A stretch of 64,000 nucleotides of DNA from Rossellomorea aquimaris TF-12 (lineage in GTDB: Bacteria > Bacillota > Bacilli > Bacillales > Bacillaceae_B): assembly GCF_001648555.1 (NCBI RefSeq), contig NZ_LQXM01000029.1, positions 434,001-498,000 on the forward strand. The letters are read 5' to 3'. Made by a program: the position numbers and the translations under genes. The notes beneath the pieces are model-generated. The model searched no databases. It had not been told where the DNA came from and saw only the letters and a list, made by a program, of their open reading frames with translations. Below, piece after piece: positions 4,947 through 7,424 of this stretch (positions within the stretch are counted from its first letter, which is position 1; the number at the start of each line of letters is the position of its first letter).

Positions 4947-5471
4947 TTATCCGTTAAGATCGCTGATCAGGCTTGAGCTTACTAATCCTGCTTCTTCTAG
5001 AAGGGTTTTGATTTGGTTTTCAGCGTCGTTTAATTTTTCATCAGCTGAAGTTAAATCTGCTTTTCCTTCTTTTTTAAGCTCTTCAGCTTTCATTGAGTAA
5101 GATTCAGTTAAAGTTGACTTAAATTCTTCCACTTTTTCCTTATGATCGCCAAGTCCTTCAGGGACCTCAAGGTTTTCTACTGCCTTTGCACTCTCTGAAG
5201 CTGATGCAGCAGCTGCTTCCTTCAGTTTAGTCAAATCGTCACCTGTTGGAGGCTCTTCAGCACCCATTGCTTCTTCATATCCATTTAAATCAATATCAAC
5301 ACCATTTACGGTTGTAGTTAAATTTAGATAAAACTCCATTAAATCTCCAGCAACATTGGTATTTTCTTCAGTTGCCTTACTTGACTCTTCTTTATTTCCT
5401 TCAGAACCTGAATCAGAACACCCTACTAATGCTAAAGATAAACCTAATCCTAAGAACCATAATTTTTTCAT
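4947..5471 (-). CDS. Small lipoprotein of unknown function
   Basis: A 174-residue secreted lipoprotein. The signal MKKLWFLGLGLSLALVGC ends in lipobox LVGC, with the lipidated Cys at residue 18. A low-complexity Ser/Glu/Lys linker follows, then Glu/Lys/Ala-rich helices with repeated EELKKEGKADL-like segments. There are no catalytic motifs. It stands alone between its own terminator and a 317-base gap shared with the tRNA gene. I do not recognise the family; an extracellular or cell-wall helical protein is the most that can be said. Confidence 0.85.
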   Translation of the reverse strand: MKKLWFLGLGLSLALVGCSDSGSEGNKEESSKATEENTNVAGDLMEFYLNLTTTVNGVDIDLNGYEEAMGAEEPPTGDDLTKLKEAAAASASESAKAVENLEVPEGLGDHKEKVEEFKSTLTESYSMKAEELKKEGKADLTSADEKLNDAENQIKTLLEEAGLVSSSLISDLNG

Positions 5472-5740: not shown

Positions 5741-5769
5741 TTGAATAACTCTATATCACATGTTATAAA
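5741..5769 (+). promoter_or_regulatory. Sigma-A promoter of the tRNA gene
   Basis: TTGAAT (5741-5746), 17-base spacer, TATAAA (5764-5769). The tRNA begins 20 bases further on. The rest of the gap 5472-5740 shows nothing recognisable. Confidence 0.65.
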
Positions 5770-5788: not shown

Positions 5789-5885
5789 GGGGCTGATTGT
5801 TTAGCTGGTGCTTGCCTAGGTCTTCAAAACCTCTTGGGAGGCGCGTGCCGTCTCCGCTGGGTTCGATTCCCAGGCAGTCCCGCCA
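5789..5885 (+). tRNA. selC: tRNA with UCA anticodon, selenocysteine type (selC-like)
   Basis: A 97-base tRNA with encoded CCA (5883-5885) and discriminator G. The anticodon arm AGGT-CTTCAAA-ACCT puts TCA at 5824-5826, which reads UGA. The T arm is CTGGG-TTCGATT-CCCAG. Eight bases, not seven, separate the T stem from the discriminator, as in the 8/5 acceptor-T stack of bacterial tRNA-Sec. The long variable arm (GGGAGGC/GCCGTCTC, 4-base loop, one bulge) resembles that of E. coli selC. Irregularities: the eighth acceptor pair is A-G, and the D arm has only AGC/GCT as clean pairing around a TGGT loop. It could be a working tRNA-Sec, an unusual UCA-type tRNA, or a decaying copy. No selA, selB or selD is in the window. 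Confidence 0.75.
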
Positions 5886-5919
5886 CTTTGAGATTTTAAT
5901 AATAAAATGATCATACTTA

Positions 5920-5959
5920 AAACCCCCTTCTGGGATACATCCAAGAAGGGGGTTTTTTT
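5920..5959. terminator. Shared terminator of the tRNA gene and the kinase gene
   Basis: AACCCCCTTC pairs with GAAGGGGGTT and is followed by a T-run on the plus strand. It lies 34 bases after the tRNA and its last bases overlap the kinase stop codon. The complementary A-rich left side lets it act on the minus strand too. Confidence 0.85.
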
Positions 5960-7283
5960 ATTGATTATGAACGTATTCACGTTTTTTTCGTTCGATCCCT
6001 TGAGCAGCATCAAAATGGATATGAAAGCTAGTTCCTTCTCCTTGTTCACTTTGAACTCTTATGTCAGCTGAATGATCTCGAAGGATACGTAAGCATATGG
6101 TCAAACCAAGTCCGGTTCCTTTTGTTTTTGTCGTGAAGAAAGGCTCTCCTAGCTTCTCAAGAACTTCCTTCTTCATGCCTATTCCTTCATCTTTAAATGT
6201 AACTTCCACTTTATTATCCTGGTTTAAGGTAGCTTTAATCGTAATATTTCCTCCATGAGGCATGGCTTCAATGGCATTTTTAATGATGTTAATAAACACT
6301 TGCTTTAATTGATTCTCATCCCCTCGAATGTACAATTCTTTCTTTTGAAAATGAGTTTGTATATCTATGTTATAAAGAATGGCGTTGGTGTTTAATAATT
6401 TTGAAACGTGATCAAGGGTCTCAACAATATTTATTCTCTTGTATGTAACGGATTGCGGCTTGGCCAATATTAACAATTCACTAAGTACCAGTTCGATTCT
6501 CTTAATTTCTGAGAACACAATTTCTAAGTAGTCCTTTGTTTTTTCGTCTGCTTCATCTCTCATTAATTGCAGGAAGCCATTTATTGAAGTAAGCGGGTTT
6601 CTTACCTCGTGGGCAATTCCTGCTGCTAATTGACCAGCTACAGATAATTTTTGAGATTCGATAGCCAACGTTTCATTCATTTCCATGAGCTCTTCTTCAT
6701 TATGTACTCTCTCAGTAATATCAGATATGGTTCCAACCGTGCCGATTAACATTCCTGCACTATTGTAATTAAGCTTGATATTGACTTCTCCCCATCGATA
6801 TTGGCCATCCCTCTTTTGATAGGAAATATCAATTTTCATTTTTTCTCTTTTCTTATCAATACTACTTCGCAGTAAACGTTGAATTTCATGACGTTCATTT
6901 AATGAGATAAAATGGAGTGCCGTTTTATTTAGACTCTCATTCACTGTATAGCCAGTATAATCCTCCCATGACTTATTTAAAAATTGGAATTCTCCCACTG
7001 AATTGGTGTGGAACACTACTTCATCAATGCTTTGAAGCACATGCTGCATTTCTTCATTTAGAAGATTCACTTTTTCCTCGCTCTTTCGAAAAGCATTTAA
7101 CATTTCATCGCTACGGTCATAATATTTCCCCATATAATATCCTATAAAAAGAATCATCAATGTGAAAACTAAATCTACTTTAATATGAATTGGATAATCT
7201 AAAACGAAATAATAGATAAAATCCCAAGTTATCACGATTAATAGACATATTAATACGGAAATAATTCTACCCCTAAATTTCAT
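5958..7283 (-). CDS. Membrane PAS-domain sensor histidine kinase (sporulation-kinase type)
   Basis: A 441-residue kinase. Two N-terminal membrane segments (about residues 8-28 and 37-55) are joined by a very short extracytoplasmic loop. A PAS/PAC domain (about 80-190) follows, then HisKA with phospho-acceptor His225 in AAGIAHEVRNPL. The HATPase domain has N box NAIEAM, G1 DEGIGM and G2 GTGLGL. The architecture matches B. subtilis KinD/KinE-type kinases feeding the Spo0A phosphorelay. No response regulator is adjacent, which fits an orphan phosphorelay kinase. The start is the ATG after GGGGG; a TTG one codon earlier is possible. Confidence 0.9.
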   Translation of the reverse strand: MKFRGRIISVLICLLIVITWDFIYYFVLDYPIHIKVDLVFTLMILFIGYYMGKYYDRSDEMLNAFRKSEEKVNLLNEEMQHVLQSIDEVVFHTNSVGEFQFLNKSWEDYTGYTVNESLNKTALHFISLNERHEIQRLLRSSIDKKREKMKIDISYQKRDGQYRWGEVNIKLNYNSAGMLIGTVGTISDITERVHNEEELMEMNETLAIESQKLSVAGQLAAGIAHEVRNPLTSINGFLQLMRDEADEKTKDYLEIVFSEIKRIELVLSELLILAKPQSVTYKRINIVETLDHVSKLLNTNAILYNIDIQTHFQKKELYIRGDENQLKQVFINIIKNAIEAMPHGGNITIKATLNQDNKVEVTFKDEGIGMKKEVLEKLGEPFFTTKTKGTGLGLTICLRILRDHSADIRVQSEQGEGTSFHIHFDAAQGIERKKREYVHNQ

Positions 7284-7424
7284 CAATTGAATCCCCCTAA
7301 ATCCACAATGCGAAAAAGTAATGATTTTATCGAAACTGAAAGAATATTCACGTTATTTGTAATATAAGTATATCATTTCTTATTGAGAACAGTATAGACT
7401 TCAATTGTATTTTATACGATATTC

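Follow-up and report, generated by a model that had tools for sequence, protein, structure and literature searches.

The 64-kb stretch of Rossellomorea aquimaris TF-12 DNA analyzed here, referred to as the window, contains a single tRNA gene, identified by ARAGORN as tRNA-SeC(tca) at positions 5789–5885 of the forward strand. This gene, selC, encodes a tRNA-Sec (UCA) of 97 nt with an encoded CCA end and G as discriminator, and its anticodon TCA (5824–5826, forward strand) reads UGA. selC stands alone between two ORFs on the reverse strand, a small lipoprotein-like ORF (4947–5471) and a histidine-kinase-like ORF (5958–7286) that is convergent with it, both named from sequence reading. About 20 nt upstream of selC lies the promoter TTGAAT-17-TATAAA (5741–5769, forward strand), which an earlier note made from the sequence had also recognized. 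A promoter consensus scan of the window did not flag this site. A looser pattern (TTG[ACT]A, 17–19 nt, [CT]ATAA), chosen post hoc after the sequences had been seen, ends 15–25 nt before selC in 30/30 genus genomes, as compared with a mean of 0.13/30 in mononucleotide shuffles. The terminator proposed in the same note is likewise present, as an intrinsic hairpin at 5919–5956 (no strand assigned) between selC and the convergent ORF, with an RNAfold energy of −24.6 kcal/mol; it was not listed by a terminator scan covering loops of 3–8 only, a limit that its loop exceeds.

The anatomy of the tRNA given in the earlier note, including the encoded CCA, the position of the anticodon, the 8-nt acceptor strands, the A-G eighth acceptor pair, and the long variable arm, proved to be correct. 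The bacterial tRNA-Sec model (Rfam RF01852) gave a full-model match at 5789–5881 with a score of 54.3 bits (gathering score 47, E 3.4e-8), so that a poor score was not seen. No other sequence in the window reached any Rfam gathering score. In the whole genome, selC alone passed the RF01852 cut-off, the other 11 matches listed scoring 43.9 bits or less. Sequence reading gives five pairs in the T stem, and the helix of acceptor and T stems comprises 13 steps, 12 of which are standard or G.U pairs, while the eighth is formed by A5796 on the 5′ side and G5874 on the 3′ side. The gene resembles E. coli selC (NC_000913.3, 3836222–3836316), which has the 8/5 layout (review, PMC7609411), in the UCA anticodon, 8 nt in each acceptor strand, G discriminator, CCA end, four-base D loop, and long variable arm. 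It differs in two features: E. coli selC, used as a control, has eight standard acceptor pairs with C-G as the eighth, in place of A.G, and its six-pair D stem is unbulged, whereas that of the window gene is bulged. In single-strand RNA folding of the window gene, the minimum energy structure was not the cloverleaf.

In the established pathway, selenocysteine is inserted through the action of SerRS, SelA, SelD, and SelB at a UGA codon accompanied by a SECIS hairpin. The earlier note had found no selenoprotein or sel gene in the window; this holds for the window itself, in which a simple screen detected no UGA-type gene, but the sel genes are located outside it on the same contig and were for that reason unseen. 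Profile searches of the genome identified selA (553.6 bits, cut-off 267.9), selB (351.5 bits, cut-off 242.25; the only SelB match in the genome above the cut-off), and selD (387.5 bits, cut-off 125), all on the 748-kb contig C28 that carries selC, with selB 13 kb and selA and selD about 200 kb upstream of selC. Although the assembly is flagged as 9.56% contaminated, the sel genes are thus all on the contig of the window. Neither selA nor selB contains an inner stop, and the sole in-frame TGA of selD is at the Sec site, within the motif KAG-U-GC. Between selD and selA, and divergent from selD, lies a SelW/Rdx-like gene of 80 codons (L011:10997–11239, reverse strand, at about 237 kb on C28), which matches TIGR02174 (SelT/SelW/SelH) with 63.6 bits (cut-off 34.2) and contains one in-frame TGA in a motif of the CxxU type, C-M-R-U. 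This gene is likely to be missed or cut by annotation that stops at UGA. The window and two 19-kb stretches were also screened for genes in which an in-frame UGA is accompanied by a Cys close by and by a hairpin, and SelD and the SelW-like gene alone emerged. As the screen covered genes of that kind in those stretches, further selenoproteins may exist in the genome.

In both genes the UGA is followed by a candidate SECIS hairpin. That of the SelW-like gene is CCGCG-AGUUU-CGCGG, with the loop AGGUU in 7/30 genus sequences. Within this hairpin, the codons of all five invariant residues (5/5) are fixed to a single codon across the 30 genomes, as compared with 0/28 outside it (62 codons compared). 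The hairpin of selD has the stem UGACGCA/UGCGUCA and the loop GGUCU in this genome, other loops such as AGUUU and AGUGU occurring in relatives, and 2 of the 25 genus sequences compared have U-A in place of an A-U pair of the stem, a compensatory change, the selA loci of 25 of the 30 genomes reaching far enough to include this flank. Fold z-scores for the two regions are weak (−1.13 and −0.78); the case for SECIS elements therefore rests on the comparison of relatives, among which the aligned hairpins are very alike.

To this evidence from one genome, a survey of 36 genomes of the genus adds the distribution of four parts of the system, namely selA, selC (above the cut-off), selD, and the SelW-like gene. 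Each was present in 30/36 genomes, and the same six genomes (G003, G010, G011, G012, G013, and G022) lacked all four. In these six selA-less genomes, RF01852 gave weaker matches only, the best having an E-value of 2.3e-7. If absences were random and independent, the chance of one such two-gene coincidence would be 5e-7, a figure that the kinship of the genomes prevents from being a true probability. The genus is probably Rossellomorea in the GTDB sense, one relative in the group (L026) matching a record of Rossellomorea aquimaris AcN21-5 without a difference over 4,377 bases. The SelW-like gene contains exactly one TGA in 30/30 genomes, and no Cys form of it was found in the 36 genomes at an E-value of 0.001. 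SelD likewise has the TGA in 30/30, the copy in G023 being on a gene in two pieces. In that genome (G023:C1:3028746-3032042), selA and selD are each split in two, one of the selD fragments containing a TAG, which may reflect sequencing error or early decay.

Taken together, these observations indicate with a probability of about 0.95 that 5789–5885 encodes a functional tRNA-Sec, and of the three options offered in the earlier note, a true selC is the best supported, by the sel genes, the UGA genes with hairpins, and their co-occurrence. As judged from the gene content, SerRS would place serine on this tRNA, SelA would convert the serine to selenocysteine using selenophosphate from SelD, and SelB would deliver the Sec-tRNA-Sec to those UGA codons that have a SECIS hairpin downstream. 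The UGA genes recognized in this genome, which would be read in this way, are selD itself and that of the 80-residue SelW/Rdx-like protein, both known as sequence. In its ordinary part, this selC is near certainly of a known kind, within a complete bacterial Sec system; its structural features belong to a variant shared across the order genes sampled, for which we found no description in the literature searched.

The earlier note had called such tRNAs rare in Bacillus relatives, a statement that is not supported by a survey of the order, in which Sec decoding is common. Among 397 sampled order genomes, selA (E ≤ 1e-60) was present in 181, belonging to 67/135 genera, and selC in 180, belonging to 65/135 genera, the filters of the selC search being stricter than those of the selA search. 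Both genes were present in 179 genomes (lists compared by eye). A 2006 survey reported Firmicutes/Bacillales with three selenoproteins in three families (PMC1794560). Two genomes had selA without selC (G066 and G301), and one (G214) had selC without selA, with the weakest score (E 1.5e-8); these three, the only discrepancies between the two genes among the 397 genomes at the thresholds used, may have lost part of the system or possess a tRNA that has diverged.

The order-wide collection allowed the two irregular features of the window gene to be compared with those of its relatives. For this comparison, 76 selC genes from the order outside the genus (72 distinct sequences) were taken from the matches listed in a non-random manner, 30 being the best-scoring and 46 being picked mostly at one per genus. 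The D arm of the window gene (5799–5815, forward strand; 5′ strand 5799–5805, loop TGGT 5806–5809, 3′ strand 5810–5815) forms, when read straight, three clean pairs and one U.G pair. With one 5′ base bulged, five of six pairs form, one of them G.U, and U.U occupies the remaining place. The same reading, in which the best bulge place was picked for each sequence and pairing is therefore favored, gives a D stem of six pairs and a single bulged 5′ base in 76/76 order genes, as compared with two to five pairs when these genes are read straight. The outer levels of the stem show many compensated changes across the 76 genes. Within the genus, 26/30 D stems have six pairs with one bulge and four, including that of this genome, have five. 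The oddity of the D arm pointed out in the earlier note is thus real as poor pairing, and one pair is extra weak here; it does not indicate decay, since the bulged six-pair stem is conserved, and on comparison of the sequences the bulge is best read as a trait of the lineage. A similar bulged 5′ D-stem base has been described in the 12-bp AT-stem tRNA-Sec of Clostridiales, where a bulge at 13a is reported as Clostridiales-specific among tRNAs of that type (PMC5330540); in many order genes the bulge lies two pairs from the loop. In the text of that paper, taken apart from its figures, the Clostridiales tRNAs have seven residues from T stem to discriminator, as compared with eight, including the purine-purine step, in the order genes. 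The fifth and sixth pairs of the D stem are stated to assist SelA activity on tRNA-Sec (review, PMC7609411, in the part consulted).

The A-G eighth acceptor pair described in the earlier note is also present (A5796.G5874), and again it carries no sign of decay. In 106/106 genes (76 from the order and 30 from the genus; 89 distinct sequences), the eighth position is occupied by two purines and never by a standard pair, the types being G.A in 59, A.G in 42, A.A in four, and G.G in one. By contrast, every one of the 89 distinct sequences has only standard or G.U pairs at acceptor positions 1–7 and throughout the five-pair T stem, even though pairs 4–7 are variable. The comparison supports reading the purine-purine eighth pair, too, as a lineage trait. 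The fourth acceptor pair (5792/5878 in the window) is G.U in 86/89 distinct sequences.

What the eighth pair does is suggested by its position. In E. coli, C7-G66, G49.U65, and C50-G64 serve in SelB recognition and EF-Tu rejection (2023 review, PMC9976931, in the part consulted), and C7-G66 would correspond to the eighth pair, as deduced from the E. coli sequence, where a C-G pair precedes the G.U pair that opens the T stem. Because of this position and its conservation, we tentatively propose the purine-purine step as an element of SelB/EF-Tu sorting, which could fill the role of the E. coli eighth pair, a possibility that we rate somewhat below even odds. On an equally guarded extension of this proposal, the tRNA-Sec of the order might be of a distinct design, in which the position of C7-G66 is an obligatory purine-purine step that alternates between G.A and A.G and is never Watson–Crick. 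Distortion of the helix would then contribute to SelB/EF-Tu sorting beyond stem length and pair identity, and SelB would be co-adapted to it, as perhaps would SelA, which faces the bulged D stem. Bacterial SelB binding and EF-Tu rejection have been credited to the longer acceptor stem itself (review, PMC7609411, in the part consulted). A solution by way of a non-standard pair is possible since in eukaryotic tRNA-Sec the non-Watson–Crick 5a:67b pair is needed for function; as in the order genes, it is a conserved non-standard pair in an extended acceptor stem, thought to be relevant for the Sec elongation factor, but it occupies another position, in a 9/4 fold and in another domain of life (PMC7609411, same part). 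No description of a conserved eighth-pair mismatch was found in the literature titles, abstract starts, and text passages searched, figures and supplements being outside the search, and none joining Rossellomorea with selenocysteine was found.

The main rival to a role in sorting is that selC is real but that its eighth pair and bulge are neutral, the purine-purine step being merely tolerated after it became fixed by chance in the ancestor of the order, to which we assign a chance approaching one in two. All the genes compared are related, and both features could descend from a single ancestor. Against simple tolerance, the eighth pair has changed among G.A, A.G, A.A, and G.G without becoming standard in any of the 89 sequences, while pairs 4–7 also vary yet stay standard or G.U. 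If the purine-purine step is indeed a sorting element, the means by which tRNA-Sec is told from ordinary tRNAs would change for a large bacterial group, and the step would be relevant to Sec-insertion systems built in Gram-positive hosts.

The two other options of the earlier note concern the nature of the gene itself, and each retains only a very small probability. An allo-tRNA, or a tRNA of the selC* type, would carry serine, cysteine, or a different amino acid and insert it at UGA by way of the UCA anticodon. Both the anticodon and the interruption of the acceptor stem at pair 8 are compatible with this. As described in the review consulted in part, some selC* tRNA-Cys have a UCA anticodon, some groups having a dedicated CysRS*, and both selC* tRNAs and allo-tRNAs have unusual acceptor domains, as here; those of allo-tRNAs are 8/4 or 9/3 (PMC7609411). 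A second SelB* is a further mark of the selC* type; a single SelB match exceeded the cut-off in this genome. The layout here is a different one: the window gene and 76/76 order genes combine acceptor strands of 8 nt with a T stem of five pairs. The UGA codons lie at positions known to hold Sec and are accompanied by SECIS hairpins, and selA, selD, and the SelW-like gene travel with selC across the 36 genomes. A relic, left over from a Sec system since lost, is as improbable. It would fit a D stem weaker than in 26/30 genus genes and a best E-value weaker than in 175 of the 180 selC-bearing order genomes (four being weaker still). Against it, selA and selB are without an inner stop, selD has only the TGA at its Sec site, the promoter pattern is kept, the anticodon, discriminator, and seven outer acceptor pairs are all intact, and those six genomes of the genus in which the system is missing have retained none of the four parts singly. 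Because these parts are jointly present or absent, and given selA, selB, and selD on the contig and UGA genes with hairpins, both options are very unlikely, and a functional tRNA-Sec remains the reading that we adopt.

With close relatives that have and lack the whole Sec system, the genus offers a test bed for its evolution. The apparent selenoproteome is small, consisting of SelD and the SelW-like protein in the window and the two 19-kb stretches screened. Formate dehydrogenase was looked for in this genome and not found, and it was accordingly rejected as the reason for the Sec system here. In the genus, 10/36 genomes had matches above the TIGR01591 cut-off, none of them with an inner stop. 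One genome, G019, which is flagged as 7% contaminated, has a formate dehydrogenase alpha gene (G019:C118:33162-35153) just below the cut-off with one in-frame TGA, the only such gene among the matches listed.

Several minor observations were made in the course of the searches. Four order genomes (G084, G104, G166, and G371) each have two tRNA-Sec matches with an E-value of 2e-8 or better. Near selB, a SAM riboswitch (L010:2134-2241, reverse strand) and a T-box leader (L010:3425-3670, reverse strand) each lie upstream of a reverse-strand gene; we take the former gene to encode an enzyme of the trans-sulfuration type and the latter a protein resembling tryptophanyl-tRNA synthetase. Neither element seems to be connected with Sec decoding. 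A gene for 138 aa (L011:10534-10950, forward strand), located between selA and the SelW-like gene, has no NCBIfam match, and its product presumably is CS/Hsp20-like, to judge from its look.
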